This document shows, piece after piece, positions 1 through 20,685 of a DNA stretch of 24,652 nt. Location of the stretch: the IMG/VR virus record IMGVR_UViG_3300033993_000734, positions 1-24,652 of that record. One strand, 5' to 3'. Within the stretch, counting starts at the first letter, position 1, and every line of letters begins with the position of its first letter. Position numbers and translations under genes: made by a program. Source of the DNA: a virus. The notes below the pieces were generated by a model. That model did no database searches. It worked only from the letters and a program-made list of their open reading frames with translations, and was not told the origin of the DNA.

Positions 1-38
1 AATTCGACAATGCGAGACGATGACAGACCTTCGGTCAT
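1..38 (-). CDS. Start of a leftward gene, cut by window edge
   Basis: Reading the minus strand from 38, an ATG opens an uninterrupted frame to the edge, giving MTEGLSSSRIVE. The ATG overlaps the TGA of the upstream gene (ATGA), the same coupling used by other genes of this leftward operon, which is the main support for it. Only 12 residues are visible, so no function can be given. Confidence 0.5.
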   Translation of the reverse strand, partial: MTEGLSSSRIVE

Positions 39-292
39 TTTGTGTACCTCTTCATCATCCGGATAGGTGAATCGTTGTTACTAGTAATGCTATTGAATGT
101 AAACTTTACACCCAAATTCTCCAGTGCATTAATGAACAATGATGCGTCGCAATCCTCTTCAAGATATACCTTATCTCCCTTGATGTAACTATACCCGCTA
201 ACTTGATCGTCGATGTGTAGCATAGCTAACTCATCTCTCCCTACCTCAAGCCATCCATGTCCGGGGTCGCTGTGAAAATTGTATGTTGTCAT
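35..292 (-). CDS. Small conserved phage protein (SDPGHGWLEV type), 85 aa
   Basis: Small soluble protein without membrane segments. It carries two stretches that I recognise as conserved in a small protein family common in phages and plasmids of proteobacteria: SDPGHGWLEV near the N terminus and KVYLEEDCDASLF in the middle. The family's function is unknown to me. A longer reading frame starts with TTG at 313, but the ATG at 292 has a GGAAA Shine-Dalgarno sequence just upstream, so I use 292. The gene follows the 27-aa micro-ORF with one base between its stop and this start, and its own stop overlaps the next ATG. It is therefore an internal gene of a translationally coupled leftward operon. 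A near-copy of the GTTACTAGTAAC palindrome (77-88, one mismatch) lies inside the gene. Confidence 0.8.
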   Translation of the reverse strand: MTTYNFHSDPGHGWLEVGRDELAMLHIDDQVSGYSYIKGDKVYLEEDCDASLFINALENLGVKFTFNSITSNNDSPIRMMKRYTK

Positions 293-293
293 G

Positions 294-377
294 TTATTTC
301 CAAAGAATGTCAAAGAATGCTAGCAGTGCTACTAGTAACACTACACCTACTAATGTTGCCTCGAATTCATCTCTCAT
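294..377 (-). CDS. Single-TM micropeptide, 27 aa
   Basis: A tiny frame reads MRDEFEATLVGVVLLVALLAFFDILWK and then TAA. Residues 8-22 are almost entirely hydrophobic, flanked by an acidic N terminus and a C-terminal W-K, as expected for one membrane-spanning helix. Its ATG overlaps the TGA of the upstream gene (ATGA), and its TAA lies one base before the ATG of the downstream gene. The frame therefore exactly fills a gap in the operon that otherwise has no gene. It has no own Shine-Dalgarno sequence and would depend on coupled translation. The role could be a small membrane-acting early protein; that is inference. The exact fit of start and stop to both neighbours and the clean hydrophobic profile support a real gene. 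It is too short for homology to be judged by eye. Confidence 0.65.
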   Translation of the reverse strand: MRDEFEATLVGVVLLVALLAFFDILWK

Positions 378-610
378 ACCGTTGCTCCCAATGCACGTAA
401 TCGTGATTTTGTGGTAACTGTAGGCCATTTGGCTAACGTATTATTGTTAACCATTACAAAGCCTGTCCTACTGTTAACGTCTGCAATATGATTACCCCAT
501 AGATACACTGCTACGTTAACGTCGTCAATAGGTTTTACTGATGTGTTGTCATTAGACCATGTAAGCCTATTGTTAACAGCATTACACATAGCTTTTTCAA
601 TTTTACGCAT
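374..610 (-). CDS. Small conserved phage protein, 78 aa
   Basis: Soluble protein of 78 residues. It starts MRKIEKAM, and its mid part NVAVYLWGNHIADV followed by a C-terminal TTKSRLRALG resembles a short family of unknown function seen in many phage genomes. I recognise the pattern only and give no function. The start is an ATG at 610 with an AAGGA Shine-Dalgarno sequence 7 bases upstream. The stop overlaps the ATG of the 27-aa membrane micropeptide, so the two are probably translated together. Upstream, between this gene and the 170-aa gene, lie the perfect GTTACTAGTAAC palindrome (625-636) and a GC-rich hairpin (636-656), both in the leader of this gene. Confidence 0.75.
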   Translation of the reverse strand: MRKIEKAMCNAVNNRLTWSNDNTSVKPIDDVNVAVYLWGNHIADVNSRTGFVMVNNNTLAKWPTVTTKSRLRALGATV

Positions 611-624
611 GATAATCCTTGTTT

Positions 625-636
625 GTTACTAGTAAC
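625..636. repeat. Perfect copy of dispersed palindrome GTTACTAGTAAC
   Basis: Perfect 12-bp palindrome in the intergenic leader of the 78-aa gene. Other perfect copies lie at 1227-1238 and 20179-20190. Copies with one mismatch lie at 77-88, 328-339, 912-923, 2864-2875, 7542-7553, 8530-8541 and 10308-10319. Weaker ones (two mismatches) lie at 1569-1580 and 1825-1836. With about 60% A+T I estimate roughly 0.1 matches at one mismatch or fewer in this length by chance, against ten seen. This one sits directly beside the hairpin at 636-656, away from coding constraint. Confidence 0.8.
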
Positions 637-656
637 AGGGGATTGTTAGTCCCCTG
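636..656 (-). other. GC-rich stem-loop between two leftward genes
   Basis: CAGGGGA and TCCCCTG form a 7-bp stem with a 7-base loop, in the gap between the 170-aa gene and the 78-aa gene. On the minus strand it follows the stop of the 170-aa gene, but no run of T comes directly after it, so it is not a textbook rho-independent terminator. It may pause or process the transcript or lower expression of the genes downstream. It abuts the palindrome at 625-636. Confidence 0.55.
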
Positions 657-662
657 CCATCC

Positions 663-1175
663 TTACTGTGCGTTCTTAGCTTCGTACACTGAGTCAGCTA
701 GCAAGGCAATCTTACCCCACAATTCTTGCAACTCTTCCTTGCTGAATGCATCTCGTGTCTCGCTGTCATACTTCTTTTGTGCCGCCTCGATGAATCCAAG
801 CATACGCTCAAAGTCACTCTTAGCCTCTTGCAACTCGCTTTTACCCTTGGGCATTGGGAATCCATCTTCCATCACTACACTACCTGAGTCGTCACGTTGC
901 CACACATCAACGTTATTAGTAACGGCCTTGCCTACTACGGATTTTGCTGAGCGTAGACTATTTTTCTCTTCCTTGGATAATTCCTTAATGTTGTTGAGAT
1001 CATCAACCAATGTTTTGTGTGCTTTATCCAACTCTTCTACATTTGAGGGCTGACCACCTATGTAGCATGTAGCTCTCACATAGTTAGCCCACACTCCCGC
1101 CCCTGCTTCCCTTGAAATGTCCTTACCTTCTTTTGCTTGGGTAAGGGCAACTCGCAGATTATTTTCGTATGACAT
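663..1175 (-). CDS. First gene of the leftward operon, unknown function, 170 aa
   Basis: Soluble, charged, mostly helical protein. Its likely coiled-coil stretches are around residues 45-75 (rich in E, K, L, D) and 110-165. It has no membrane segment or signal peptide and no motif that I recognise. The start ATG at 1175 has a good AAAGGA Shine-Dalgarno sequence. It is the first gene downstream of the control region, about 230 bases from the nearest leftward promoter-like repeat, so it is probably an early gene made in quantity. A host-takeover or DNA-binding accessory role would suit that position but nothing in the sequence proves it. A long frame on the opposite strand (619-1053) is a shadow of this gene. 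Confidence 0.8.
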   Translation of the reverse strand: MSYENNLRVALTQAKEGKDISREAGAGVWANYVRATCYIGGQPSNVEELDKAHKTLVDDLNNIKELSKEEKNSLRSAKSVVGKAVTNNVDVWQRDDSGSVVMEDGFPMPKGKSELQEAKSDFERMLGFIEAAQKKYDSETRDAFSKEELQELWGKIALLADSVYEAKNAQ

Positions 1176-1226
1176 ATAATTCCTTTACAGTTTAATTTGA
1201 TTTACTAAGGCTTGATCTTAGCACAC

Positions 1227-1238
1227 GTTACTAGTAAC
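1227..1238. repeat. Perfect copy of dispersed palindrome GTTACTAGTAAC
   Basis: Intergenic perfect copy, about 50 bases upstream of the first leftward gene and downstream of all four leftward promoter-like repeats. It would therefore lie in the leader of the early transcript, a suitable place for a regulator or roadblock site. Confidence 0.8.
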
Positions 1239-1249
1239 ATATACTAAGG

Positions 1250-1298
1250 AAAACCCTAGAGTTTTCTGGTAACTTATCCCCTGTGCCATTAGGGTTTT
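1250..1298 (-). other. Leader hairpin AAAACCCTA/TAGGGTTTT
   Basis: Nine complementary bases on each side (1250-1258 and 1290-1298) enclose 31 bases. On the leftward transcript this gives an A-rich 5' side, a short CCCTA/TAGGG core and a TTTT 3' side, reminiscent of a weak terminator or attenuator in the 5' leader. The long loop and only three G-C pairs make it doubtful as a terminator. The length and lack of cloverleaf arms exclude a tRNA. Confidence 0.4.
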
Positions 1299-1413
1299 AC
1301 CTGATACTCTCCCAAGTATCTTGCACCTAGCGAACTCGTATGGACACTGTGTTGCCATAGTCAAAGCTTTCGCATACGTTTTATTAGGGGTACGTATTCC
1401 CTTGCTTGCATCC

Positions 1414-1447
1414 ATTATAACTCTGGTTTCTTACACCAAACTTACAA
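1414..1447 (-). promoter_or_regulatory. Leftward promoter-like repeat, copy 1
   Basis: On the minus strand this reads TTGTAAG, then a second TGTAAG 11 bases after the first, then TATAAT 10 bases further on. The other three copies have 9 bases in that gap. The TATAAT is a perfect -10 box. There is no good -35 hexamer at 17 bases; instead the two TGTAAG half-sites, one helical turn apart, cover that position. It is the copy nearest to the leftward genes. Confidence 0.6.
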
Positions 1448-1484
1448 CTTCCAAAGAACTTTTGTTGTCTTTACACAACACCCA

Positions 1485-1506
1485 CAACATGCAAGATTAC
1501 ATGTTG
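1485..1506. repeat. Inverted repeat CAACATG/CATGTTG
   Basis: Seven-bp arms separated by 8 bases, located between promoter-like copies 1 and 2. The half-site CAACAT recurs in the perfect palindrome at 1637-1648, which suggests an operator for one protein, though this is inference from two sites only. Confidence 0.4.
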
Positions 1507-1521
1507 CTTCGTATGACCTTC

Positions 1522-1554
1522 ATTATACACACTAACCTTACACGAAACTTACAG
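1522..1554 (-). promoter_or_regulatory. Leftward promoter-like repeat, copy 2
   Basis: Minus strand CTGTAAG, TGTAAG 11 bases later, then 9 bases and a perfect TATAAT (1522-1527). It matches copy 3 at nearly every position in the first 18 bases, and also shares GTGTATAAT. Confidence 0.65.
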
Positions 1555-1606
1555 TGAGAATCATTGTCCTTACTAGTATCGTGCACCGTATCAGTGCATG
1601 GCCTCT

Positions 1607-1639
1607 ATTATACACAGAAACCTTACATGAAACTTACAA
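1607..1639 (-). promoter_or_regulatory. Leftward promoter-like repeat, copy 3
   Basis: Minus strand TTGTAAG, TGTAAG 11 bases later, 9 bases, then TATAAT (1607-1612). Its upstream end overlaps the 12-bp palindrome at 1637-1648, which would allow a bound protein to block or assist this copy. Confidence 0.65.
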
Positions 1640-1648
1640 CATATGTTG
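1637..1648. promoter_or_regulatory. Perfect palindrome CAACATATGTTG, possible operator
   Basis: Perfect 12-bp dyad overlapping by three bases the upstream edge of promoter-like copy 3. It shares the half-site CAACAT with the inverted repeat at 1485-1506. Confidence 0.4.
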
Positions 1649-1680
1649 CTAATTAACAACATCTGCTGTGCATGTGACCC

Positions 1681-1713
1681 ATTATCCATAGAATACTTAC
1701 ACGAACCTTACAA
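1681..1713 (-). promoter_or_regulatory. Leftward promoter-like repeat, copy 4
   Basis: Minus strand TTGTAAG, TGTAAG 11 bases later, 9 bases, then GATAAT, one base from the consensus -10. It is the outermost copy; the four copies are 108, 85 and 74 bases apart. Spacing within the unit is conserved while the 9-base filler differs. This indicates selection on the two half-sites and the TATAAT box rather than a recent duplication. Confidence 0.6.
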
Positions 1714-1726
1714 ACCTTGCGTACCC

Positions 1727-1780
1727 ATGTACGTATACATATGTACACGTATACGCGCGCGTACGTATATATGTACGTAT
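1727..1780. repeat. 54-bp perfectly alternating purine-pyrimidine tract
   Basis: Every base from 1727 to 1780 alternates purine and pyrimidine, with (CG)4 at 1754-1761 inside the palindrome TACGCGCGCGTA and TACGTA/GTATAC units around it. Such tracts adopt Z-DNA or cruciforms under negative supercoiling. The tract stands between the promoter-like repeats and the A+T tract. Confidence 0.85.
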
Positions 1781-2001
1781 TATATGCATTATATTGCATA
1801 TTATATCTATAATATTATCAATATAATACTAGTAACATTATATAACTATATAATATATATAACTATTATACTATTATATATAATAATATATATACTACTG
1901 GGGGTATATTAATATATAACTAGTTACTATATACTTATATATTATCTAATATAGTATATATATATACTATAGTTAATATATTATATATATATATATATAT
2001 A
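1781..2001. repeat. About 220 bp of nearly pure A+T
   Basis: Low-complexity TATA/ATAT sequence with only scattered G or C, apart from a short CTGGGGG at about 1897-1903 and a TA-dinucleotide run near 1982-2001. It includes an imperfect dispersed palindrome (1825-1836) and many TATAAT-like hexamers, so single -10 boxes cannot be assigned here. It would melt easily, which suits an origin or promoter region. Confidence 0.8.
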
Positions 2002-2358: not shown

Positions 2359-2410
2359 TTTTTCAGAAAATTAATTTTTCCCCCACTAAACTTCTTTGTT
2401 TAGGAATACA

Positions 2411-4423
2411 ATGGCAAAACTCACATTAAATACAATCGGTAGTCGGTATGGGTCTATTGATGCACTGAATGCTAATTTCGATGCCATTGAAACGGCATTG
2501 GAGAACACCCTGTCTAGGGACGGTACAGCACCCAATGGTATGGATGCTAACTTTGACATGGATTCTAACCGCATCATTAACCTCACTGATGCTCTAAATA
2601 ATTCTGATGCTGTCACTTTGCGTCAAGTAAATGGTATTGTTGCAGGTGCTTCTACAGGAATCATTGCTTCCCTACGGGAAAACTTTGTTGCCACTGCTGG
2701 TCAGACAGTGTTTAACATTGCCTCTTTTACGTACAACGTAGGCAGTAACAACTTAGCTGTATATTTGGACGGTGTGCGCCAATATCCCGGCACTAGTTAC
2801 ACAGAGACAGATAACAACACAATTACCTTTTCAGCCGGATTACATGTCGGTGCATTGGTTATGGTTATTAGTAACCAAAGCGTAGACACTGCCAATTTGA
2901 ACGCATCTTTAGTACATTACAATCCTGCTGGCACTGGTGCTGTAGCAACCAACGTGCAGAGTAAGTTACGTGAAAGTGTGAGTGTTAAAGACTTTGGAGC
3001 TGTTTGTGATGGTATTGCTGATGACACCGCTGCCGTTCAAGCCGCAGTTAATTATTGCCTAACAGATTCTCTTAGACCTATTTCTCTTCTTGTTCCCGGT
3101 CAATGTAAGTTAACATCTTCAATTAAAATTGACCAAAGTGTAAGCGTTACAACTTTAAAACTAGGTGATTTTAGAATTATTGGTCAAGGCAAAATGCCCG
3201 GCTTTTACGTTACAACTCCAATTGTGATGTTCTCAGCAACAGCCAATCACACAGTTCAGTCTGTATCTTCAAACATTTCGTTTGAAGGCATTGTGTTTGA
3301 TAACAATGATCGCACAGTTGCCGCATTTGTAACTGATGGCGCTTACATTCAAGTTAAGTTTCAGAACTGCCGATTCAATCGAATTAAGTGCATGAATACA
3401 TCAGGAATCAATACGTTTTCGTATTCATTCTTGGCTTGTGAAATGCGTAATTGGGATGGTGATTTCTTTAATTTACAGTACACAACTTCAAACGACATTA
3501 CGTTTTCAAACTGTTATTTCAATGGTGGCTACAACTGCGTTGTTTTAGGTATTTCTCAAACATTCAATTTTATTGACAATACTGCTGAATCATTGCAAGG
3601 CAGACCCATTAGTCTTAGCGGTGGTAGAGACATTTTAATTACTGGTAATTATTTTGAGGCTAACAGAACAGCGTTAGGTCAAGCATACGAAGTGCAACTT
3701 GCGTCAGGCGCATTTGCTCTTTCTGGTTGCGTTGTTCAAGCAAACTTATTTTATTTAAGCGCAGGACAAGTAACTGACGCTAATGATTATGCTGTCAACT
3801 ATGGTCAACCAGTGAGCGCCACTTCTATTGGCAACTGGTGCGCTGGAAAACTTAGTCGAACAGTAAGTCCAATATTAGGCTCATTCATGTCTATTGGCGA
3901 TGCTGATAATTCAACCAACGCACCCGCAGATTCCATAACAGTTTTGACAGATTTTCAAGGTAAAGCATTAAATCTTGGCACAAAAGGCTATTACCAACAA
4001 ATTAACAACTACAACGTACAAACTGTTGCAGTTACAAAAGCATTTAATTCTGATTTGTTTAATGCCGCAGCTACAACAGATAATGCTGTGCTCTGGCAAC
4101 AACCAGCACAGTCTTTATTGCTTAACGTAACAATGGTTAATGAACTGTTATTTGTTGCACCAAGCATGACTGATTTGGATATTACGGTTGGTGATGGCTC
4201 AGATGATAATGGAATTTTAGCTGAAACAATGAATTTAACCTCAGATACATTAAATACCAAATATAAAAATCGTGGTGTTTATTGGAATGGCGGTTCTGCT
4301 GGTACGGAATACTACACAACCACAGCAAAAAATTGGTCAGGTTATGCCACCGCAACTGGTGCTAATTTAAGTACTTTGACTGCAGGTCAAGTAACCTTCT
4401 ACTTTACATATCGTTCTCTATAA
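2411..4423 (+). CDS. Tail spike/fibre with pectate-lyase-type beta-helix, 670 aa
   Basis: Virion protein for host recognition, likely trimeric. Residues 1-75 form a short N-terminal adaptor (GSRYGSIDALNANFDAIE, then DSNRIINLTDALNNSDAVTLRQV) of a type common in podoviral fibres. Residues about 91-155 form a beta-rich linker (FVATAGQTVFNI, YLDGVRQYPGTSYTE). From residue 191 the motif VSVKDFGAVCDGIADDTAAVQAAV marks the start of a right-handed parallel beta-helix of the pectate-lyase-3 superfamily. It runs to about residue 480 with repeated short strands. The C terminus (about 560-670) is beta-rich and resembles a jelly-roll head. Start: ATG at 2411 with TAGGA upstream; an upstream TTG at 2396 is less likely. 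Whether it cleaves a polysaccharide cannot be read from the sequence. It is first of three spike/fibre genes. Confidence 0.85.
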   Translation: MAKLTLNTIGSRYGSIDALNANFDAIETALENTLSRDGTAPNGMDANFDMDSNRIINLTDALNNSDAVTLRQVNGIVAGASTGIIASLRENFVATAGQTVFNIASFTYNVGSNNLAVYLDGVRQYPGTSYTETDNNTITFSAGLHVGALVMVISNQSVDTANLNASLVHYNPAGTGAVATNVQSKLRESVSVKDFGAVCDGIADDTAAVQAAVNYCLTDSLRPISLLVPGQCKLTSSIKIDQSVSVTTLKLGDFRIIGQGKMPGFYVTTPIVMFSATANHTVQSVSSNISFEGIVFDNNDRTVAAFVTDGAYIQVKFQNCRFNRIKCMNTSGINTFSYSFLACEMRNWDGDFFNLQYTTSNDITFSNCYFNGGYNCVVLGISQTFNFIDNTAESLQGRPISLSGGRDILITGNYFEANRTALGQAYEVQLASGAFALSGCVVQANLFYLSAGQVTDANDYAVNYGQPVSATSIGNWCAGKLSRTVSPILGSFMSIGDADNSTNAPADSITVLTDFQGKALNLGTKGYYQQINNYNVQTVAVTKAFNSDLFNAAATTDNAVLWQQPAQSLLLNVTMVNELLFVAPSMTDLDITVGDGSDDNGILAETMNLTSDTLNTKYKNRGVYWNGGSAGTEYYTTTAKNWSGYATATGANLSTLTAGQVTFYFTYRSL

Positions 4424-7507: not shown

Positions 7508-7794
7508 TGAAAAAGCTAATACTAGTAATGCTGTTTGCTGTGTTACTAGTATCAGCACAACCAAGACCCTGTATACTAACAGATTTTTATGGTTTAAGTA
7601 ACATAAACGAACCAACACTAAGACACATAGAACTATCTAGATGGCTTACTACTAACGGTGATAATTGTAGTAGTGAACAACTTGTGACGTTGTGGAATAA
7701 CTTAGCTATGTGGGCTGGTGTAGCAGATAGTAGTGAACTAAGAGCTAAGGTTCTTTATTATTATGCTAGGGCTGTTGAAAGGGAAAAGAAATGA
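7507..7794 (+). CDS. Small exported protein in the lysis cassette, 95 aa
   Basis: Residues 1-17 (MKKLILVMLFAVLLVSA) are a signal peptide with a plausible signal peptidase I cut after SA. The nearby cysteine lacks a lipobox, so it is not a clear lipoprotein. The mature part is about 78 residues with two cysteines (C at 22 and 54) and helical stretches (HIELSRWLTTNG, EQLVTLWNNLAMWAG, SELRAKVLYYYARAVEREKK). It lies between the XhlA-like and helical genes with TAATG and ATGA overlaps. A periplasmic lysis role such as a spanin-type partner would suit its place, but it lacks a spanin's usual features, so the function is open. Two dispersed-palindrome relatives lie in its first 45 bases, one of them (7542-7553) with one mismatch. 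Confidence 0.7.
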   Translation: MKKLILVMLFAVLLVSAQPRPCILTDFYGLSNINEPTLRHIELSRWLTTNGDNCSSEQLVTLWNNLAMWAGVADSSELRAKVLYYYARAVEREKK

Positions 7795-8035: not shown

Positions 8036-8443
8036 ATGCTAGGACTAGATGCACTGTTAAATGTGGGCACTAAACTCATTGATAAACTTATTCCTGATCC
8101 GGAGCAAAAGGCTAAGGCTCAATTTGAGCTAACTAAGATGGCACAAGATGGTGAATTGGCTAAGTTGGCTAATGAAACCAAGCTTTATGAAGTAGAGCAA
8201 GAGAATGTAACTAGACGGGCTGAAGCAGATATGTCTAGTGATTCGTGGATGAGTAAGAACATTCGCCCATTGACATTAGTGTTCCTACTTGTAGCGTATT
8301 CAGGATTTGCCATTGCATCTATCTTTGAGTATGAAACTCGTGGTGCGTATGTAGAGTTGCTAGGGCAATGGGGCATGTTAGTTATGTCTTTTTATTTTGG
8401 TGGTAGGACAATGGAGAAGATTGCAGATAGGGTTAAACGATGA
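8036..8443 (+). CDS. Holin, 3-TM gene-transfer-release type, 135 aa
   Basis: Inner-membrane holin that would let the peptidase reach the cell wall. The N-terminal half is a helical soluble region (IPDPEQKAKAQFELTKMAQ, rich in K/E). Residues about 73-84 (SKNIRPLTLVFL) are the conserved entry to the membrane part. Hydrophobic segments follow at about 78-94 and 108-121 (LLGQWGMLVMSFYFGG), ending with RTMEKIADRVKR. This pattern matches the 'holin of 3TMs' family known from gene transfer agents and many phages. Its start has GGAG upstream, and its TGA overlaps the ATG of the peptidase. Confidence 0.85.
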   Translation: MLGLDALLNVGTKLIDKLIPDPEQKAKAQFELTKMAQDGELAKLANETKLYEVEQENVTRRAEADMSSDSWMSKNIRPLTLVFLLVAYSGFAIASIFEYETRGAYVELLGQWGMLVMSFYFGGRTMEKIADRVKR

Positions 8444-8895
8444 AACTATCTTACAACTTTTCACTAGACGAACTTACTAAGTCAGAAACAGCCATTCGTC
8501 GTAACATTGACAACACACCTACACAAAGTGTTATTAGTAACTTGCAAGCACTGGTTAATAATGTGTTGCAACCTGTACGAGATAAGTTTGGCCCCCTTAC
8601 TATTAGTAGCGGTTATCGTTCCCCACAACTTAACACAGCAATTGGTGGAAGTAGTAAAAGTGACCACTGTTTAGGTATGGCTGCTGATATTGAAGCACCC
8701 GGACTAGATAATAAACAACTTGCTCTATATATTAAAGATAACTTTAAATATACACAACTCATTCTAGAGTTTTATACAGAAGGTCAACCGCATAGTGGTT
8801 GGGTTCATGTAAGTTACGATGAAAAAGATTTGAAGTGCGAAGTGCTTACAGCTACTAAGCAAGATGGTAAAACAGTTTATTTAAAAGGAATTTAA
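8440..8895 (+). CDS. Endolysin, M15 family zinc peptidase, 151 aa
   Basis: Cleaves peptide cross-links of peptidoglycan at lysis. The zinc site is plain: H76 and D83 in SSKSDHCLGMAADIE, H123 in GWVHVS, with E110 as the likely catalytic base and SSGYRSPQLN (56-65) ahead of it, as in M15A D-Ala peptidases and DUF882-like endolysins. Length is normal for a single-domain enzyme. It has no signal peptide and no wall-binding domain, so export depends on the holin whose stop overlaps its start. Confidence 0.92.
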   Translation: MKLSYNFSLDELTKSETAIRRNIDNTPTQSVISNLQALVNNVLQPVRDKFGPLTISSGYRSPQLNTAIGGSSKSDHCLGMAADIEAPGLDNKQLALYIKDNFKYTQLILEFYTEGQPHSGWVHVSYDEKDLKCEVLTATKQDGKTVYLKGI

Positions 8896-9761: not shown

Positions 9762-10099
9762 CTATTAATACACAGGCTAAATGGAATGCCTTGCGTGGTT
9801 TGTCGTACACAGGTACTCAAGAAGACATGGAGTTGTCCTTCTATCGTGCCAATGGTGCGACAAGTTATTCGTTACGTGACGCTGAAGATCAGTTTTTAAC
9901 TGGTAGAGGTTACACTGTAGGTGCAGTAGAAGACAAGTGGAAAGCATATCTTTTATCCTTTGGTTACACTGGCGCAGTGGATGATATGATTGTACGGTTT
10001 TGGAATGATGTGGGTGCTGCTATTGCTAACAATCTGTTACTAGAAACTGGCGACGATATTCTTCTAGAAACTGGTGAATACCTATTGTTGGAGAGTTGA
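9758..10099 (+). CDS. Small YTG-repeat protein, probable virion component, 113 aa
   Basis: Built from repeats. Three related units begin YTG or YTV at residues 17, 52 and 70 (YTGTQEDMELSFYRANGA and YTGAVDDMIVRFWNDVGA are clearest). The C terminus repeats an LLLETGDD-type octamer (93-113). YTG-type units and LLLETG tails occur in small structural proteins of many phages; I take it as a minor virion or tail-associated protein. Start overlaps the previous stop (ATGA). Confidence 0.6.
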   Translation: MTINTQAKWNALRGLSYTGTQEDMELSFYRANGATSYSLRDAEDQFLTGRGYTVGAVEDKWKAYLLSFGYTGAVDDMIVRFWNDVGAAIANNLLLETGDDILLETGEYLLLES

Positions 10100-10100: not shown

Positions 10101-10367
10101 ATGCCCTACATGACAAACGGTAAACGTGATTATAAAAAACAACAGGCATATGATGGTAAACCATCTGTTGTAAAAGATAGAGCTAAACGTAATGGTGCTC
10201 GTCGTATGTTAGAGAGTGAAGGTAAAGTATCTAAGGGTGACGGTAAAGATGTTGACCATAAGAAGCCACTGAGTAAAGGTGGTGGTAATGGTAAGTCTAA
10301 TTTACGTGTTACTAGTAAGACTTCTAACCGCAGTTTTCCTCGTAAGAAAAATGGAGCTATGAAATGA
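10101..10367 (+). CDS. HNH-nuclease-like small protein, 88 aa
   Basis: The motif GKDVDHKKPLSKGGGNGKSNLRVTSKTSNRSF (in pieces: DVDHKKPLSKGG, SNLRV, SNRSF) is that of compact HNH proteins: the first His in VDH, the central Asn in SNL, and the terminal Asn. The protein is very basic. HNH proteins next to terminase can take part in DNA cleavage at packaging; a homing role is the alternative. The classic zinc-binding cysteines are missing and the domain is short, so activity is uncertain. I chose ATG 10101 with GGAG upstream, one base after the previous stop; a frame from 10074 is longer but lacks a site. Confidence 0.65.
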   Translation: MPYMTNGKRDYKKQQAYDGKPSVVKDRAKRNGARRMLESEGKVSKGDGKDVDHKKPLSKGGGNGKSNLRVTSKTSNRSFPRKKNGAMK

Positions 10368-10513: not shown

Positions 10514-10773
10514 TGGCTAAAGACCCTAGATTAGAACGTGCTGGTGTTGCTGGATTCAATAAACCAAAACGTACACCTAGCCATGCAACTAAAAGCCACG
10601 TTGTTGTAGCTAAAGAAGGTGATAAAGTAAAAACTATTCGCTTTGGTCAACAAGGTGTATCAGGTGACAAAGAACCTACAGCACGACAAAAGAGTTTTAA
10701 AGCACGACATGCAAGCAACATTGCTAAAGGCAAGATGAGTGCTGCATATTGGGCAGATAAGGTTAAATGGTAA
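10513..10773 (+). CDS. Small basic protein, DUF6321-like, 86 aa
   Basis: MAKDPRLERAGVAGFNKPKR, SHVVVAKEGDKVKTIRFGQQG, and the very characteristic end SFKARHASNIAKGKMSAAYW-ADKVKW match a small conserved phage family (I believe DUF6321). The function is unknown. It is basic and located immediately before the large terminase with a TAATG overlap; co-production with packaging proteins is likely. ATG 10513 is preferred over GTG 10510 because it overlaps the previous stop. Confidence 0.8.
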   Translation: MAKDPRLERAGVAGFNKPKRTPSHATKSHVVVAKEGDKVKTIRFGQQGVSGDKEPTARQKSFKARHASNIAKGKMSAAYWADKVKW

Positions 10774-12296
10774 TGTCTGAAAAAGAACTAGTAAAGCAAG
10801 CGGCAGAGGAAGACTTACTCACGTTTATTCGACTAGTTGCACCACACCGAGTACTTGGTGCAGTGCACGAAGAATTGTGTGCATGGTGGCAGCGTCAAGA
10901 TGCAAAGGACAACCAGCTTGTCCTGCTTCCACGTGACCACCAGAAGAGTGCAATGATTGCCTATCGTGTGGCACACCACATTACAAAGAATCCAGAAGCC
11001 ACTGTACTGTACGTATCTGCTACAGCTAACTTGGCTGAAAAGCAATTAAAAGCTGTTAAAGACATTCTATTGTCTGACATCTATCGTTTTTATTGGCCTG
11101 AGATGGTTAATGATATGGAAGGTAAGCGAGAGCGTTGGGCTGTTGATGAGATTAGCGTAGACCACCCTAAGCGTAAAGCCGAGGGTATTCGTGATGCCAC
11201 TATTAAAGCAGCAGGTATTACAGCTAACGTTACAGGGCTTCATTGTTCTATTGCTGTACTAGATGACGTTGTAGTTCCAGATAATGCCTATTCACAGATT
11301 GGTCGCGACCAAGTGAGGGCGTTCTATTCGCAACTATCATCCATTGAATCTACTGGTGCAAAAGAATGGGCAGTAGGTACTCGTTACCATCCCGGTGATT
11401 TGTACAAAGACATGATGGAAATGACTGAATCCTATTACGATGATGTTAAGGATGAAGAAGTAGAAAATGAAGTCTACGAAACGTTTGAACGTGTTGTAGA
11501 AACTAATGGTGAGTTTTTGTGGCCTAAACAACGTCGTACAGATGGTAAGACGTTCGGCTTTGACCAGAAAGAACTTGCTCGCAAGAAAGCAAAATATTTG
11601 GACATTACACAGTTTTATGCCCAATATTACAATAATCCCAATGCAGTTGAAACACAACTCATTGATCGTAGTAGATTTAATTATTACGAAAGAGATAAAA
11701 TTGAGAATTTTAGCGGTGCTTGGTACTTTGGTGATAAGCTTCTCCACGTGTATGCAGCTATGGATTTTGCGTACACAGTTAACCACAATTCAGACTATAC
11801 AGTCATTGCAGTGGTAGGCATTGACGAAGATAACAACTATTATGTTTTAGACATTGATAGATTTAAAACAAATAAGATTTCTGTAATGTATGACAAAGCA
11901 GAAACCGTATATCGTAAATGGCGATTTAAGAAGATGCGATGTGAGGTTGTAGCTGCACAACGACTCATTGTTAGCCAGTTTAGAGACTACATGCGTAGTC
12001 AAAACATTGTCTTTACTATTGATGAATACAATCCTCCTAGGACAATGAACAAAGCAGAACGTATTGCATCTATCCTAGAACCACGTTATAGCAACAATCA
12101 AATTTGGCATTATAAAGGTGGTAATTGCCAAACACTAGAAGAAGAACTCATTATGAACAATCCAGAACATGATGACGTTAAAGACGCTTTAGCCGCTTGT
12201 GTAGAGATTTGTAAGTCTCCAGTATCTAATAGATCATGGGGTAAAAAATCCAACATTATTGCATTTAATTCAAAGTTTGGTGGCGTAGCCTACTAA
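10773..12296 (+). CDS. terL: Large terminase subunit (ATPase and nuclease), 507 aa
   Basis: DNA-packaging motor that docks on the portal. Counting from the ATG at 10773, the ATPase half has a Walker A PRDHQKS (53-59), a Walker B IAVLDDVV (160-167) and a coupling GTRYHPGD (202-209). The nuclease half has the acidic cluster of the RNase H fold: D331 in YAAMDFAY, E391 in CEVVAAQ, and D467/D468/D471 in HDDVKDALA. Walker A is a deviant form with Q where most terminases have G or L, as in other phage PRGHxKS terminases. The ATG at 10767 is an alternative start; TAATG overlap with the previous gene favours 10773. The gene carries large shadow frames on both strands. Confidence 0.95.
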   Translation: MSEKELVKQAAEEDLLTFIRLVAPHRVLGAVHEELCAWWQRQDAKDNQLVLLPRDHQKSAMIAYRVAHHITKNPEATVLYVSATANLAEKQLKAVKDILLSDIYRFYWPEMVNDMEGKRERWAVDEISVDHPKRKAEGIRDATIKAAGITANVTGLHCSIAVLDDVVVPDNAYSQIGRDQVRAFYSQLSSIESTGAKEWAVGTRYHPGDLYKDMMEMTESYYDDVKDEEVENEVYETFERVVETNGEFLWPKQRRTDGKTFGFDQKELARKKAKYLDITQFYAQYYNNPNAVETQLIDRSRFNYYERDKIENFSGAWYFGDKLLHVYAAMDFAYTVNHNSDYTVIAVVGIDEDNNYYVLDIDRFKTNKISVMYDKAETVYRKWRFKKMRCEVVAAQRLIVSQFRDYMRSQNIVFTIDEYNPPRTMNKAERIASILEPRYSNNQIWHYKGGNCQTLEEELIMNNPEHDDVKDALAACVEICKSPVSNRSWGKKSNIIAFNSKFGGVAY

Positions 12297-12305
12297 GAGG
12301 AAAAT

Positions 12306-14063
12306 ATGAACGAAAACGTACAAGTAAGTTTTAATGACGATGCACTAGCAAATAAAATTGCTGACATGTGGACTAAGTGGGATACTAACCGTTCTGTTTG
12401 GAAATCTGACCAACAAGAATTACGTAACTATTTGTTTGCTACAGATACACGTAAAACTAGTAACAGCAAACTTCCTTGGAAGAACTCTACAGTTACTCCT
12501 AAACTTACTCAGATTAGAGACAACTTACATGCCAATTATATGGCTGCGTTGTTTCCATCTGAGAATTGGTTTTTCTGGGAAGCTACAGACAAAGGTGTAG
12601 AACTTACTAAAAAGCGTTATGCCATTACAAACTACATGAAACAGAAGTTAAAAGCATCTAACTTTCAGCTTCTTGTTTCTCAACTTGTATATGACTACAT
12701 TGATTTTGGTAACGTTGTTGTTACTTATGACTACGTTCGTGATACTATTAGCGACAGTACAGGTAATGTTGTAAGCAAATACATTGGCCCTAAAGCCTAT
12801 CGTATTAACCCTACAGACTTGGTGTTTAATCCATTAGCTGAGACTTTTGACAAGACTCCTGTGGTGCGTCGTATGCTTAAGTCATTAGGTGATTTAATGA
12901 CTGACATAGAAACTAAACCAGCGTTAAATTACAGCAAAGATGTTCTAGACAAAGCATTACAATTCCGTCAAAACTATCGTGATGACCCTGAGTTCAAAAA
13001 AGAATTAAACATGGCTATTGATGGCTTTGGTAGTGCTGATGAATACCTAGAAAGCGACATGGTTGAGTTGCTGGAGTTCTGGGGAGATATTTACGATCCC
13101 GACACGAAGACGCTTTTACGCAACCAGTTAGTAACAATTATCGACCGTAAGTGGGTTTTACGTAAACAACCTAATCCAATGTGGACAGGTAGCAAACCTA
13201 TGTTCCATTGTGGTTGGAGATTGCGTACAGATAACTTGTGGGCACAAGGCCCACTAGACCAGTTGGTTGGTATGCAATATCGTATTGACCACTTGGAGAA
13301 CTTGAAGGCTGACGTATTTGACCTTATTGCCTACCCTGTTATGGTAGTTAAAGGTAACACTGTAGAGGAGTTTGAATACGAACCCGGAGCTACTGTGTTT
13401 GTTGGTGACGAAGGTGGTTTGGAATTTATGCGTCCTGATGCTACAGCATTGCAAGCAGACCTCCAGATTAACGAGCTTATGAACCGCATGGAAGAGCTTG
13501 CAGGAGCACCTAAACAGGCTATGGGTATACGTACCCCCGGAGAGAAGACTAAATACGAAGTACAGAGCCTAGAGAACGCTGCTGGACGTATCTTCCAAAG
13601 CAAGGTAAGTTGGTTTGAACGTAACATTCTAGAACCGCTACTTAATGGCATGTTAGCTGAATCTGTACGTAACTTTGAAGGTGTAGAGCGTATTCGTTCA
13701 GTTGATGAAGATTATGGTACTGTATCCTTTGTTGAAGTGACTAAAGATGATTTGATGGCTGCTGGTAAAATCTACCCATTAGGTGCTCGTCACTACGGTG
13801 AACAAGCTAGATTTATTCAAGAGTTGTCGCAGACAATAACTGCTGTACAAGCTATTCCTACAGTTGCTGCCCACATTAGTGGTAAGGCTATTGCCAAAGC
13901 GTTGGAAGAAAATCTTGGTTGGCAGAACTACCGTATTGTACAAGACAATGCTATGATTTTTGAACAAGCTGAAACACAGCGATTGATGAATCAGGTATCT
14001 GAAGATATACAAACTGAAGCAACTATTAACCCCGAAGGGCCACCTATTGACATGCCACAATAA
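12306..14063 (+). CDS. Portal / head-tail connector protein, 585 aa
   Basis: Dodecameric ring at the capsid vertex for DNA entry and exit. The sequence has the layout of podoviral connectors: helical N-terminal wing (about 1-160, with SKLPWKNSTVTPKLTQIRDNLHANYMAALFPSENWFFW), a central beta region (ELLEFWGDIYD, IIDRKWVLR), then GPLDQLVGMQYRIDHLENLKADVFD, and a tunnel-loop/helical part from 400 on (ELAGAPKQAMGIRTPGEKTKYEVQ). It is a little longer than the T7 connector. The Shine-Dalgarno AGAGGAAAA lies 10 bases after the terminase stop. The stop codon falls in the centre of a perfect dyad described separately. Confidence 0.9.
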   Translation: MNENVQVSFNDDALANKIADMWTKWDTNRSVWKSDQQELRNYLFATDTRKTSNSKLPWKNSTVTPKLTQIRDNLHANYMAALFPSENWFFWEATDKGVELTKKRYAITNYMKQKLKASNFQLLVSQLVYDYIDFGNVVVTYDYVRDTISDSTGNVVSKYIGPKAYRINPTDLVFNPLAETFDKTPVVRRMLKSLGDLMTDIETKPALNYSKDVLDKALQFRQNYRDDPEFKKELNMAIDGFGSADEYLESDMVELLEFWGDIYDPDTKTLLRNQLVTIIDRKWVLRKQPNPMWTGSKPMFHCGWRLRTDNLWAQGPLDQLVGMQYRIDHLENLKADVFDLIAYPVMVVKGNTVEEFEYEPGATVFVGDEGGLEFMRPDATALQADLQINELMNRMEELAGAPKQAMGIRTPGEKTKYEVQSLENAAGRIFQSKVSWFERNILEPLLNGMLAESVRNFEGVERIRSVDEDYGTVSFVEVTKDDLMAAGKIYPLGARHYGEQARFIQELSQTITAVQAIPTVAAHISGKAIAKALEENLGWQNYRIVQDNAMIFEQAETQRLMNQVSEDIQTEATINPEGPPIDMPQ

Positions 14064-14078
14064 TTGTGGTAGTATAAT
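14047..14078 (+). promoter_or_regulatory. Promoter candidate with 20-bp spacer and central dyad
   Basis: TTGACA (14047-14052), the ideal -35, and TATAAT (14073-14078), the ideal -10, are 20 bases apart. That is three too many for ordinary initiation but typical of promoters activated by MerR-type regulators. The spacer holds a perfect dyad CCACAAT-A-ATTGTGG (14055-14069). The small gene at 14137 follows. The -35 and half the dyad lie in the portal's last codons, so chance cannot be ruled out. Confidence 0.45.
14055..14069. promoter_or_regulatory. Perfect dyad CCACAATAATTGTGG
   Basis: Seven-bp arms around a single central base, covering the portal stop codon. Either an operator between -35 and -10, or an RNA hairpin at the end of the portal reading frame; no T run follows for a terminator. 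Confidence 0.6.
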
Positions 14079-14136
14079 ATATATATTATATAGTATTAAT
14101 TATATTATATAAATATATATATAAATAGGATATATA

Positions 14137-14388
14137 ATGAATAAACTATTACTAAATAATAAACCTAAAGATAGTAGTAATGAAGAGTTTATTAAAGCTT
14201 GGAATAATAGTAGTTATACTTTAGAAGCTTTATATAAAACATTACTAGTATTAAAAGAAGATATTAACAGTATTAAAAAGGATGATTTTGACTGTCCTAA
14301 CCATTACGCTAAATTGGCGTACAATTTAGGACAGATGAAAGCATTTGATTTAATTGTCTCAATGTTACCTGATACAGCTAAAAAGTGA
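14137..14388 (+). CDS. Moron-like small protein of unknown function, 83 aa
   Basis: Soluble helical protein (MNKLLLNNKPKDSSNEEFIKAW, YTLEALYKTLLVLKEDINSIKK). Sits between portal and scaffold, where related phages usually have nothing. The gene and its 73-base upstream gap are visibly richer in A+T than its neighbours (AAT, AGT, TTA codons throughout; upstream almost only A and T). It has its own promoter candidate and a weak terminator-like hairpin after it, so it looks like a moron added to the late operon. AGGA stands before the ATG. I do not recognise the family and give no function. Confidence 0.7.
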   Translation: MNKLLLNNKPKDSSNEEFIKAWNNSSYTLEALYKTLLVLKEDINSIKKDDFDCPNHYAKLAYNLGQMKAFDLIVSMLPDTAKK

Positions 14389-14399
14389 CATTTTTCAAA

Positions 14400-14426
14400 T
14401 AGCCTACTCTAAGGCTACCAATTTTT
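14400..14426 (+). terminator. Weak terminator-like hairpin after the moron
   Basis: TAGCCT and AGGCTA form a 6-bp stem with a 6-base loop, followed after four bases by TTTTT (14422-14426). Short stem and a gap before the T run make it weak; read-through to the scaffold gene is expected. Confidence 0.45.
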
Positions 14427-14440
14427 AAAGGAATTTCCGC

Positions 14441-15172
14441 ATGACCAATGCAACAATCTTTAACGGTGAGAACGACAATCCTCCCGCTAATCAACCACCA
14501 GCGACAACTGATGGATCGCTTTTCACTGCTCTAGTGGGTGAACAGCAAAAATACAAAACTCCAGATGATTTAGCTAAAGCATATAACAATGCTGACCAGT
14601 TTATTGAAACCTTGAAAGAGGAAAATCGTAGACTACGTGAGCAAGCAGCTTCCGCTAAAACCATTGATGAAGTTTTGGAACGTATGTCGAAACAAAGTGG
14701 TGCACCAGAGGCCGACAATCCTCCTGTACAGGGCTTAACCCCTGATGTTGTGCAACAGCTTGTAGAGAGGACGTTAGAGGGTCGTAAACAGCAAGATAGT
14801 AAGAATGGCAATTTGCTTAGGGCTGATGCTCTTATGAAAGAGAAATTCGGTGATAAAGCAGAACAGATGTTTAAGCAAAAAGCTTCTACACCTGAAAAGG
14901 CTAAAATTCTTATGGAACTAGCTGCAAATGATCCGACAGAGTTTGTGTCATTATTTAATGGTGTTCAACTACCCACAAATAATTTTGATACAGGTTCTGT
15001 AAATACAACTTCCGTAGCTTCTAGTGGAGGTGATCGAAGTAGAGTTGAAGGAACAAAAGAATGGGCCGCTAAAGTCCGTAAAGATGATCCTAATACCTAT
15101 TGGTCACAAGAATTCCAATATAAACTACAACAAACTGTTTCTAAAAACCCGACCCTATATTTTGGTCAATAA
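14441..15172 (+). CDS. Capsid assembly (scaffolding) protein, 243 aa
   Basis: Guides procapsid assembly and leaves the mature head. Typical composition: acidic, Pro/Gln-rich N terminus, KYKTPDDLAKAYNNADQFIETLKEENRRLREQ (a domain opening with TPDDLAKAY plus coiled coil, about 37-70), a GLTPDVVQQLVERTLEGRKQQ middle, and a C-terminal part that would touch the capsid protein. It lies directly before the major capsid gene, as in T7-like order. An AAAGGAA ribosome site precedes the ATG. Confidence 0.88.
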   Translation: MTNATIFNGENDNPPANQPPATTDGSLFTALVGEQQKYKTPDDLAKAYNNADQFIETLKEENRRLREQAASAKTIDEVLERMSKQSGAPEADNPPVQGLTPDVVQQLVERTLEGRKQQDSKNGNLLRADALMKEKFGDKAEQMFKQKASTPEKAKILMELAANDPTEFVSLFNGVQLPTNNFDTGSVNTTSVASSGGDRSRVEGTKEWAAKVRKDDPNTYWSQEFQYKLQQTVSKNPTLYFGQ

Positions 15173-15183
15173 GGAGAATTTAA

Positions 15184-16140
15184 ATGGCTGGTGTTGATTA
15201 CGCAAAGGTTAATGAAAACCTCGTTCGTGCAGAACTTTGGTCTGCCGAACTAAAAGATGTGTTGCAAGAGCAATTGATGGGTACACGCTATGTGCGTATG
15301 CTCAACGGTTTCCCTGATGGCAACCAATTTACTATTCCGTCTGTTGGCGAATTGCCAATGCGTGAAACTGCTGAACTGACCCCCGTTGTGTATGACGCAA
15401 TGGACACTGGTGAGTTCAACTTCACGATTGATCGTTATGTTGAATCTGCTACCTATATCACTGATAAGGCTAAGCAAGACAGCTACTACGCTCAACAACT
15501 CATTGGTATGTTCCCTACCAAGATGCGTCGTGCTTTGGATGAGAACTTGGAGACTTCTGTTTTCTCTCTCGCCAATACACAAACTGCTAACAACTTGAAT
15601 ACCATTAACGGTGCTGCTCACCGCTTTGTGGCTTCAGGTGCAACCAACACTGTCTTGTCTTTGGATGACTTTGCTAAAGCTAAGTTTGCCTTGGATAAAG
15701 CACAAGCTGGTGGTAGCCGTGTAGCGATCATTGACCCATCACAAGAGTATGTGTTCAACCAATTGGTTGGTGCACAAGCTTTCATTAACAACCCACAATT
15801 CGGTGGTATTGTTAACGGTGGTTTCGTGAATGAAGTAACAGGTATGCGCTTCGTTAAAAACATCTTCGGCTTTGACGTTTATGTTTCTAACTTCTTGGCT
15901 ACACCTACTGATACAACTATCAATAGCGTGTCTGTTCCTGCATCTCCAGTGACTAACATCTTTATGTCTGTTGGTGGTGACTTGACTCCCTTCGTCGGTG
16001 CTTATCGCCAGATGCCTCGTGTTGAATACGAGCGTAACAAAGATTTGCGTCGTGATGAGTATGTGATGAACGCACGTTTTGGCCTCAAGCTTTATCGCCC
16101 TGAGTGCTTGGTGTCCATCATTTCTAAATCAACAATCTAA
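15184..16140 (+). CDS. Major capsid protein, HK97-like, 318 aa
   Basis: Forms the icosahedral head. The gene order (directly behind the scaffold), length near 320 residues and sequence (VGELPMRETAELTPVVYDAM, FTIDRYVESATYITDKAKQD, MRRALDENLETSVFSLANT, GMRFVKNIFGFDVYVSN, FGLKLYRPECLVSI) fit the HK97-fold capsid proteins of podoviruses. It has the best ribosome site of the window (AAGGAGAA) and a strong terminator 8 bases after the stop, so it is made at high level as its own transcript end. Confidence 0.92.
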   Translation: MAGVDYAKVNENLVRAELWSAELKDVLQEQLMGTRYVRMLNGFPDGNQFTIPSVGELPMRETAELTPVVYDAMDTGEFNFTIDRYVESATYITDKAKQDSYYAQQLIGMFPTKMRRALDENLETSVFSLANTQTANNLNTINGAAHRFVASGATNTVLSLDDFAKAKFALDKAQAGGSRVAIIDPSQEYVFNQLVGAQAFINNPQFGGIVNGGFVNEVTGMRFVKNIFGFDVYVSNFLATPTDTTINSVSVPASPVTNIFMSVGGDLTPFVGAYRQMPRVEYERNKDLRRDEYVMNARFGLKLYRPECLVSIISKSTI

Positions 16141-16147
16141 ACTAATT

Positions 16148-16177
16148 AACACTAGGGGAATACTCCTAGTGTTTTTT
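16148..16177 (+). terminator. Rho-independent terminator after the capsid gene
   Basis: AACACTAGG and CCTAGTGTT form a 9-bp stem with an 8-base loop, and six T (16172-16177) follow, overlapping the stem end. Placed directly behind the major capsid gene, the classic site for a T7-type late terminator that lets some transcripts continue. Confidence 0.85.
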
Positions 16178-16202
16178 AACTAACACATAAAGGAAATTTA
16201 AA

Positions 16203-17368: not shown

Positions 17369-17369
17369 T

Positions 17370-18463: not shown

Positions 18464-20685
18464 TGGCAGCACAAGCTTCAGTTAAGGATGCGTTTACCTT
18501 TGTAGGTGGTCTAGTCACTGAAGGCGGCTATTTCATTACTCCTGAGAATAGCTACAAAGAAGGTGTAAACGTAGTTCCACAGATGGATGGTACTCTTGAA
18601 CGACGTAATGGTTTAGATTACGAAGACGATTACGCTTTACATGCAGCAGCTATTTCGTCAGATCAAAAAGACTTATGGGCATTTACTACAGGTACTTGGT
18701 CTACTGTAGCAGGTAGTGGTAACAAGGATTTTATTGTAGCGCAACTTGGTCGTTATTTACATTTTTACAATGCGTCTACTGGCTCTACTAGTGCAAGTCG
18801 TAATACTGTATATAGCATTGATTTAAACACTTATAAAGTACCCGGCAATACTAATGTAACTGGTGTTGCTTTATGTAGTTTTGCATCTACATATGGTAGA
18901 CTCATTGTTACTAGTGCTGACACTTTACCCATTATTATTACATATACTCCTGTAGTTGGTGATGATAGTGCTTGGGGTACATTTGCTGTTGAAACAATTG
19001 ATATTAATATTCGTGATTTTAAAGGTATACCATTAGTTGACAATAGCGGTAATACTGTAGCAATTGATGTTGAATACACTGAAGCAGAATGGACAGCACT
19101 AGGTATTGACATTGCTGATGTTAAATATAACTTGTATAACCAAGGTTGGACAGATACGCAAATTGATTCATATAAAACCGTTAATGCTGATAAGTTTCCA
19201 TCTAATACTAAAAGTTGGATTTATGGTAAAGATACCAATGATAATTTTGATAGTGTTGTATTAAATAAACAAGACTTTGGTAACTCTCCTGCCCCTAAAG
19301 GGCATTTTATTATTGATCCTTTTATTGATACTACTTATCGGCCTAAAGTATGTGCGTTCTTTGCAGGACGTACATGGTATGCAGGTATGACTTCATCTGA
19401 CTTACTAGGCACTGTATTCTTTAGTCAAGTGTTGGATACTGTAGACAAAGTAGGTAATGCATATCAAACTAATGATCCTACATCTGAAGTCATTAGTGAT
19501 CTAGAAGATGATGATGGTGGCACTGTAGAGATTCCAGAAGCAGGTGAGATTGTAGCAATGCAACCATTAGGCCGTGGCATCATGGTGCTAGCAACTAACG
19601 GTGTGTGGTTTATCTCTGGTGTAGATCAGGGATTTAAAGCATCTAACTACGCAGTTGATAGGGTATCATCTGTAGGTTGTGTTAGTGGTAAAGCTGCTAT
19701 AGTTGTTGAAGATAGTTTGTTATATTGGAGTAACAGTGGTATTTACGCTGTTAGTGCTGCTAATGCTGTAGAATTTACTGCTACTAATATTAGTGACAAA
19801 AACATTAAAACATTTTATCAAGACATTCCTGTGTTGGGTAAATTATATGCTGAAGGTGCGTACAATGCTACAGATAAAACTATTTATTGGTTATATTCAA
19901 ACACAGTTACTGCAAGTACTAATAGTGGTAGATTCAACAAAAACACTATTCTTGCCTTTGACATACGTTTAAATAGTTGGTATTGGTTTTCTATTAATAC
20001 AACTGTAGGTGTTATTCCTATTTCTATTGAAGTTACTAAAGAAACAAATACAATTACAAACGAATATGGGGTATTAGTTGGCGCAGATACAGTGGTTGTA
20101 GGCGCAGATACAGTTACAGCATATATAAACAATGTTTCCGGCACACGCAAACTATATAAAGTGTTATCATTACACCCAGTTACTAGTAACAATTATTCAG
20201 TAACTTACAGTGACTTTGCTAACACAAGAGATAGTAGCACTAAGTTTAAAGACTGGTATTCATTTAACACTGCTGGTAATGAGCAACAAGCATACTTTAT
20301 TACTGGATATAACATGGGTGGTAATGGCCCTGCTCGTGCTAAAACAGGTCAATATCTTACAGTGTTTATGAAGCGTACTGAAACGTCTTTTAATGCTAGT
20401 GCAATCCCACTAAATCAAAGTGGTTGCTTGATGCAAAGTCGATATGATTTTACTGACAATGGTTATCCCGGCAAGTGGGCTGATAATGTACAAGTATATC
20501 GTCAACTACGTCCATTCTTTGCAAATCCTTTAGATAGTTTTGATGATGGCTATCCATTAGTTATTTCTAAAAATAAACTACGGGGTAGAGGTAAAGCTGT
20601 ACAGTTTAAGTTTGCTAGCGAAGATGGTAAAGATATGAAGATTGTTGGATGGACAGGAACATTTATAGGTAATACTAATGTCTAA
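18463..20685 (+). CDS. Tail tubular protein B-like nozzle, 740 aa
   Basis: Tail nozzle beneath the adaptor, carrying the fibres. The start AFTFVGGLVTEGGYFITPEN and SYKEGVNVVPQMDGTLERRNGLDYEDD is characteristic of gp12-like nozzle proteins, followed by beta-propeller-like strands (LIVTSADTLPIIITY, KVCAFFAGRTWYAG, VVEDSLLYWSNSGIYAVS, FDIRLNSWYWFS). The C-terminal part ends KIVGWTGTFIGNTNV. Length is close to the T7 gp12. The ATG at 18463 shares bases with the preceding TAA. A perfect GTTACTAGTAAC occurs in frame as codons Val-Thr-Ser-Asn (20179-20190). Confidence 0.88.
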   Translation: MAAQASVKDAFTFVGGLVTEGGYFITPENSYKEGVNVVPQMDGTLERRNGLDYEDDYALHAAAISSDQKDLWAFTTGTWSTVAGSGNKDFIVAQLGRYLHFYNASTGSTSASRNTVYSIDLNTYKVPGNTNVTGVALCSFASTYGRLIVTSADTLPIIITYTPVVGDDSAWGTFAVETIDINIRDFKGIPLVDNSGNTVAIDVEYTEAEWTALGIDIADVKYNLYNQGWTDTQIDSYKTVNADKFPSNTKSWIYGKDTNDNFDSVVLNKQDFGNSPAPKGHFIIDPFIDTTYRPKVCAFFAGRTWYAGMTSSDLLGTVFFSQVLDTVDKVGNAYQTNDPTSEVISDLEDDDGGTVEIPEAGEIVAMQPLGRGIMVLATNGVWFISGVDQGFKASNYAVDRVSSVGCVSGKAAIVVEDSLLYWSNSGIYAVSAANAVEFTATNISDKNIKTFYQDIPVLGKLYAEGAYNATDKTIYWLYSNTVTASTNSGRFNKNTILAFDIRLNSWYWFSINTTVGVIPISIEVTKETNTITNEYGVLVGADTVVVGADTVTAYINNVSGTRKLYKVLSLHPVTSNNYSVTYSDFANTRDSSTKFKDWYSFNTAGNEQQAYFITGYNMGGNGPARAKTGQYLTVFMKRTETSFNASAIPLNQSGCLMQSRYDFTDNGYPGKWADNVQVYRQLRPFFANPLDSFDDGYPLVISKNKLRGRGKAVQFKFASEDGKDMKIVGWTGTFIGNTNV
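20179..20190. repeat. Perfect copy of dispersed palindrome GTTACTAGTAAC
   Basis: Inside the tail nozzle gene, in frame as Val-Thr-Ser-Asn. ACT-AGT codon pairs are common here, so this copy alone could be codon use. Confidence 0.6.

Follow-up and report, generated by a model that had tools for sequence, protein, structure and literature searches.

A dispersed 12-bp palindrome array in an uncultured podophage and its candidate phage-encoded reader

The stoperators of cluster A mycobacteriophages, recognized by repressors such as those of L5, Bxb1, and TipsytheTRex, are many short sites dispersed near promoters and within transcription units; all are read by one phage protein, and the site sequence evolves together with that protein (PMC6550527, PMC9283540). 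L5-type stoperators are 13 bp long, asymmetric, and mostly in one orientation, they occur in temperate phages, and their reader is a monomer with two DNA-binding domains (PMC9283540, PMC6550527). Here we describe an array of the 12-bp palindrome GTTACTAGTAAC in IMG/VR virus record IMGVR_UViG_3300033993_000734, of which positions 1 to 24,652 were analyzed (the window). Like the stoperators, the array consists of many dispersed short sites of one sequence, and variants of the site change with a protein, here the RSAKS family. The member of this family encoded in the window is p170 (170 amino acids; 663–1175, minus strand), the first gene of the early arm.

The SlmA and Noc nucleoid-occlusion sites and the parS sites of ParB are likewise short palindromes, scattered along a chromosome and recognized by a dimeric protein. 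However, the RSAKS protein has no sequence similarity to SlmA, Noc, or ParB, and the present sites follow the transcription arms of the phage. Nor did sequence or fold searches show a recognizable relation of the RSAKS protein to the L5 repressor: it matched no model in Pfam, PHROG, or NCBIfam, and none of its fold matches was clear. The present sites are mostly intragenic, and the 13 genomes searched, many of them incomplete, contained no integrase or resolvase. The array resembles stoperators but is not a member of that group, the site being symmetric and the candidate reader not recognizably related. The Zobellviridae isolates ICP2, SIO1, MEP401/402, and VP41s3 resemble the window phage in their terminase, portal, and capsid genes and partly in those for replication but have neither the palindrome array nor an RSAKS gene.

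The palindrome array in the window and in related phages

Terminase and portal similarity identified the window as a piece of a podophage related to the Zobellviridae, with the Methylophilales phages MEP401/402, SIO1, and ICP2 as best named matches (65–70% DNA identity). Early genes run leftward from ~1175 and late genes rightward from ~2400, and the contig begins within the early arm. The window holds 11 copies of GTTACTAGTAAC with ≤1 mismatch and 16 with ≤2, compared with a mean of 1.99 (maximum 7) at ≤2 mismatches in 100 dinucleotide shuffles; the reversed pattern, used as a control, gave 0 copies. Nine copies are coding, against a mean of 0.52 (maximum 3) in 200 codon-preserving shuffles of the window genes, and therefore codon choice does not explain them. 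This shuffle had been set beforehand, in a first-pass annotation of the same DNA, as one of two tests that could refute the array, which survived it.

Seven copies in the left arm, at the positions given by the first-pass annotation, are separated by 251, 297, 287, 315, 342, and 256 bases. The coefficient of variation of this spacing is 0.12, whereas random placement gave a median of 0.86 (P about 1e-4). The first (GTTACTAGTAAT, one mismatch, 77..88) lies within gene 35–313(-), and the homologous SITSN/VTSN codons in the related genome G014 also bear a site. The second (GCTACTAGTAAC, one mismatch, 328..339) falls between genes 35–313(-) and 374–610(-). A perfect site at 625..636 precedes the start codon of gene 374–610(-) by 15 bp, a position kept in relatives, and is about 540 bp from the start of gene 663–1175(-). 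The copy at 912..923 (GTTATTAGTAAC, one mismatch) sits in the middle of the candidate reader gene (about +250), where it overlaps VTNN codons directly after the RSAKS helix and is conserved across nearly all relatives with the same class of site (class A, below). A second perfect site at 1227..1238 is 52 bp upstream of the candidate reader start codon. The remaining two, each with two mismatches, are CTTACTAGTATC at 1569..1580 in the intergenic leader and AATACTAGTAAC at 1825..1836, at the edge of an AT-rich block. Beyond the left arm, the five copies that had been listed were found as described: GTTATTAGTAAC at 2864..2875 in the tail-fibre-like gene 2396–4423(+), GTTACTAGTATC at 7542..7553 (coding), GTTATTAGTAAC at 8530..8541 in gene 8440–8895(+), and GTTACTAGTAAG at 10308..10319 (coding), each with one mismatch, and a perfect site at 20179..20190 in the head-closure-like gene 18445–20685(+). 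The window scan added one that had been overlooked, GTTACTAGAAAC at 10036..10047 (one mismatch). No site with ≤2 mismatches occurs from 10320 to 20178, which takes in the stretch encoding terminase large subunit, portal, scaffold region, and major capsid (10767..16140, plus strand).

Related IMG/VR genomes were fetched in rounds of 14, 11, and 12. Among 12-bp palindromes, GTTACTAGTAAC shows the strongest enrichment in nearly all relatives. In relatives whose sites have the class A form of the window phage, GTTAYTARTAAC, it is the top or near-top 12-mer palindrome, with 8–22 copies (≤1 mismatch) per near-complete genome. A set of 78 loci retrieved through their helicase similarity (831 kb, redundant) contained 452 copies compared with 2 for a complement control. 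A logo of the sites gave a clean symmetric TGTTAYTARTAACA-like sequence with no information past one flanking base on each side. A literature search found nothing on the palindrome, its two matches being of an unrelated primer type.

The sites are conserved in place. Near-complete class A genomes have 7–16 coding copies as against 0.3–1.0 in codon-preserving shuffles; the fragment G013 has 3 copies, and the motif-free G006 has none. Alignment by codon places most sites that are present in many sequences at the same column. Synonymous variability within most well-conserved sites is 0.01–0.25 compared with gene means of 0.44–0.51; a few less conserved sites have values of 0.36–0.60. Relatives with conserved proteins retain the sites, so that the array also survived the second refuting test of the first-pass annotation, and it is under selection at the DNA level.

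Sites are frequent in the helicase, CobS, CobT, polymerase, primase, and RNR genes (74 sites in 49 helicase and 70 in 36 CobS sequences; for TerL, portal, and major capsid protein the corresponding figures are 6 in 57, 7 in 56, and 0 in 45). In 10 of 13 genomes, sites between the helicase and p170 genes are spaced more evenly than at random (P<0.01), the genomes being related and so not independent. The early arm is richer in sites per kb than the late arm in every near-complete class A and class C genome tested, by 2–4-fold in most. Site density peaks at the RSAKS gene (23.6 per 10 kb), falls to 9 and then about 5 along early transcription, and is lowest 4–12 kb into the late side (0.6–2 per 10 kb). 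The first-pass annotation was correct about the even spacing of the left arm. The density is not peculiar to the first 1.9 kb; the array extends about 20 kb in longer relatives.

More distant relatives carry a sister palindrome, GTTCYTARGAAC, alone or alongside GTTACTAGTAAC. Distant helicase relatives (37–48% identity) have class C sites, GTTCTTAAGAAC and GTTCCTAGGAAC, with 28 in genome G028 as against well under 1 expected, and G032–G034 have a mix of A, C, and hybrid sites. The site family is therefore GTTMYTARKAAC. Seven relatives lack the motif (G006, MEP401, MEP402, MW202697, SIO1, ICP2, and VP41s3). G006 (loci L125–L127) is a natural module swap: its terminase, portal, and capsid are 72–80% identical, yet the whole helicase-polymerase-CobS-CobT-RSAKS module is lost together with the sites. 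In the RSAKS-free Vibrio phage VP41s3 (L133), other palindromes, of the types GTCCTATAGGAC, GTCCTCGAGGAC, and GACCAATTGGTC, look enriched and are perhaps another reader/site pair.

The RSAKS family as candidate reader

The first-pass annotation saw no enzyme that might recognize the palindrome, which is probably wrong: the best candidate reader is gene 663–1175, within the left-arm stretch itself. In a clustering of all proteins, every motif class shared a set of replication genes, which also occur in motif-free phages, and two small families, p170 and a family of similar size adjoining CobT (family 154). The two are distant homologues with the shared core RSAKSV...GKSxL (HHalign probability 87%, E 4.5e-6), and AlphaFold models of both match the same uncultured-phage BFVD entries. 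The family as a whole is a 140–240-residue early protein with the core [R]SAK[SC]V...GK[ST]xL, into which the window protein fits with R75 S76 A77 K78 ... G111 K112 S113. No model of it exists in Pfam, PHROG, or NCBIfam, tblastn did not find it in named phage records, and a scan of bacterial genomes with alignment pattern A1 gave no RSAKS gene and so no clue to the host; patterns A3 and A4 were too loose for some collection scans.

With a joint profile, an RSAKS gene was detected in all motif genomes with a contig that extends to its locus (class A, mixed, and class C) and in 0 of the 7 motif-free genomes, a one-to-one association. The class B loci G029, G035, and G036 gave no match. Their contigs stop 2–5 kb upstream of the helicase, and in G027 the RSAKS gene lies about 7 kb upstream of it; because they end short of the expected locus, they are no counter-examples. 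A reader restricted to the narrow p170 family was rejected, since L294, L297, and L303 have the palindrome and no p170 by the narrow profile, a conflict resolved by family 154 being a distant p170 homologue. CobS/CobT, SSB, helicase, polymerase, and primase were rejected as readers because they occur in motif-free ICP2 or MEP phages. An ECF-like sigma factor was likewise rejected, being missing from some motif genomes, and sigma promoters are not palindromic. Some class C phages have two RSAKS paralogues (G028, 39621–40091 and 41876–42454; L358; L373).

The association was also predicted from the protein alone. The pattern [MF]Pxx[YW]RSAKS fetched 80 loci, of which 60 new loci of at least 9 kb were scored against about 4000 ranked palindromes, 8 of them of the GTTNYTARNAAC type (GTT[A/C]YTAR[T/G]AAC). 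A palindrome of this type ranked first in 53 of the 60 loci, and in the remaining seven it took second or third place. Once proteins >80% alike were dropped, it was first in 22 of 23. By contrast, it was in the top three in 0 of 35 control loci fetched by the MEP402 helicase and lacking an RSAKS gene (780 kb), where the totals were 2, 2, and 2 sites compared with 3.3, 3.3, and 1.1 expected. Because the loci share ancestry, the counts do not represent independent events; the contrast between presence and absence is sharp nonetheless.

Site classes A, mixed, and C form clades on the RSAKS tree (6 changes for 5 labels as against a shuffled mean of 30), and A sites accompany proteins with Leu before the conserved Arg, C sites those with Tyr, and mixed sites those with W...AMKL. 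Where this Arg is replaced by Ala (G022), the outer G occurs in 4 of 40 half-sites compared with 585 of 1140 (0.10 versus 0.51; Fisher 1e-7), and where it is replaced by Thr (G037), in 2 of 12 (0.17 versus 0.51; P 0.02). Loss of the outer G together with the Arg change is suggestive of an Arg-G contact, not proof of one. In the model, Arg75 is in helix 68–86, which follows helix 46–63 and precedes a hairpin. A site lies 46–56 bp upstream of the candidate reader start codon in 13 of the 16 listed site-bearing class A genomes, which suggests autoregulation, and 1227..1238 is likely an autoregulatory operator.

Proposed mechanism and alternative explanations

The first-pass annotation had taken the dispersed palindromes to point to a DNA-binding protein whose action extends over the entire early region. 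The conserved positions and synonymous constraint of the sites support this well, as do the early-arm bias and the tie to one phage protein family. We favor, with moderate confidence, the reading that the RSAKS protein recognizes the palindromes and probably silences the early region in a stoperator-like manner; the association points to binding, and site position, more weakly, to silencing. The product of 663–1175(-) would read GTTMYTARKAAC, probably as a dimer with one half-site per subunit and with Arg75 reading the outer G, in which case an R75A variant is predicted to lose the outer-G preference and keep TTACTAGTAA. Binding at the site ~52 bp ahead of its start codon would probably let the protein limit its own synthesis. 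As it accumulated, it would occupy sites every 300–800 bp along the early (replication) arm, most densely at the early start, and the bound protein would act as operator and elongation roadblock to shut down early transcription, while the almost site-free late-proximal operon (terminase, portal, and capsid) could be transcribed freely. Such roadblocks are in keeping with the bias toward the early arm and the gradient from its start, with the placement of sites regardless of gene boundaries, and with a late-proximal operon free of sites. A timing device of this kind in lytic phages is our first choice, because no integrase or resolvase was found in the 13 genomes searched and an ECF-like sigma factor in relatives could drive the late genes. 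In many relatives this factor, likely a late-gene sigma, is encoded where the early arm ends distally (Pfam Sigma70_r2 5e-11, r4_2 1.5e-9; G005 12485–13009 (-), G027 13094–13576 (+), and G028 28170–28676 (-)).

Several observations weigh against silencing by the RSAKS protein. Unlike the asymmetric, oriented mycobacteriophage stoperators, the present site is a symmetric palindrome. The mixed-class phages G032 and G033 have little arm bias. Fold searches with the AlphaFold models, including against the PDB, recognized no DNA-binding fold (best Z 6–7, to helical parts); a helix-turn-helix plus hairpin or winged-helix reader at residues 46–106 is our tentative reading of the model and is backed by no fold search. 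The association clusters on the tree: site class goes with clade whichever linked gene is taken, and G022 and G037 are a single clade and thus one evolutionary event. Finally, the even lattice and the distal late-arm sites also fit an architectural or replication role.

Such a role is the main rival, although we rate it less probable. The RSAKS protein would organize, condense, segregate, or help replicate the genome as a nucleoid-, ParB-, or initiator-like protein. The lattice would serve bridging or spreading from the AT-rich region, which resembles an origin, and transcription would be affected secondarily if at all. The even spacing, the density peak beside the AT-rich intergenic block, the unoriented palindromic sites within genes and in both arms, and the replication genes as constant neighbors of the RSAKS gene would all suit it. 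However, terminase, portal, and capsid are nearly site-free, the arm bias tracks transcription units, and the fixed site upstream of the candidate reader gene resembles an operator.

That the sites are read by another linked phage protein (the CobS/CobT-like pair, SSB, or primase), or by a host factor recruited or titrated by the phages, appears improbable. Those genes are also common to motif phages, and host range could follow the same tree. However, motif-free ICP2 still has helicase, polymerase, primase, SSB, CobS, and CobT homologues, MEP-type helicase loci lack the motif, loci picked by RSAKS alone predict it, and variants of the site go with RSAKS clades. A modification site, which the first-pass annotation also raised, or a restriction-related one, maintained for a phage or host enzyme acting there, is very improbable: the sites are palindromic and dispersed through coding and non-coding DNA, but such strong over-representation, fixed positions, arm bias, and a gradient would be unusual, and 13 genomes contained no N6/N4 DNA methylase of PF01555, the one family searched. 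Although two reading frames inside genes are compatible with the palindrome, the shuffles and the complement control already refute chance or codon usage (VTSN and similar strings of codons).

Silencing by the RSAKS protein, if true, would reveal a hidden regulatory layer in the protein-coding sequence of a large uncultured phage group, give a function to a protein family with no known role, and extend stoperator-like control beyond temperate actinobacteriophages. It is plausible, and we suggest it tentatively, that the system is a new class of phage genome-wide control, in which an unnamed family reads evenly spaced early-arm coding palindromes and either times early shut-off or organizes the genome in lytic podophages, with a specificity code pairing Arg75 with the outer G and clade with A or C at position 4. 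The many clades that differ in site variant offer natural material for the study of protein-DNA specificity, and direct tests of the system would need one 170-residue protein and one 12-bp duplex.

Other features of the window

The AT-rich repeat block at 1798..2001 lies between the divergent early and late arms, a location from which a role as origin or promoter region is possible. Upstream of the candidate reader gene, the leader at 1321–1430 contains a short open reading frame-like stretch kept in relatives (62–81% protein identity); no tRNA or Rfam family matched it, or the rest of the window. The small early gene 374–610(-) matches Pfam Kyano_Gp96 (4.5e-17) and has four GTTAAC hexamers within ~130 bp. 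A second AT-rich tandem repeat block is present at 14077–14138.

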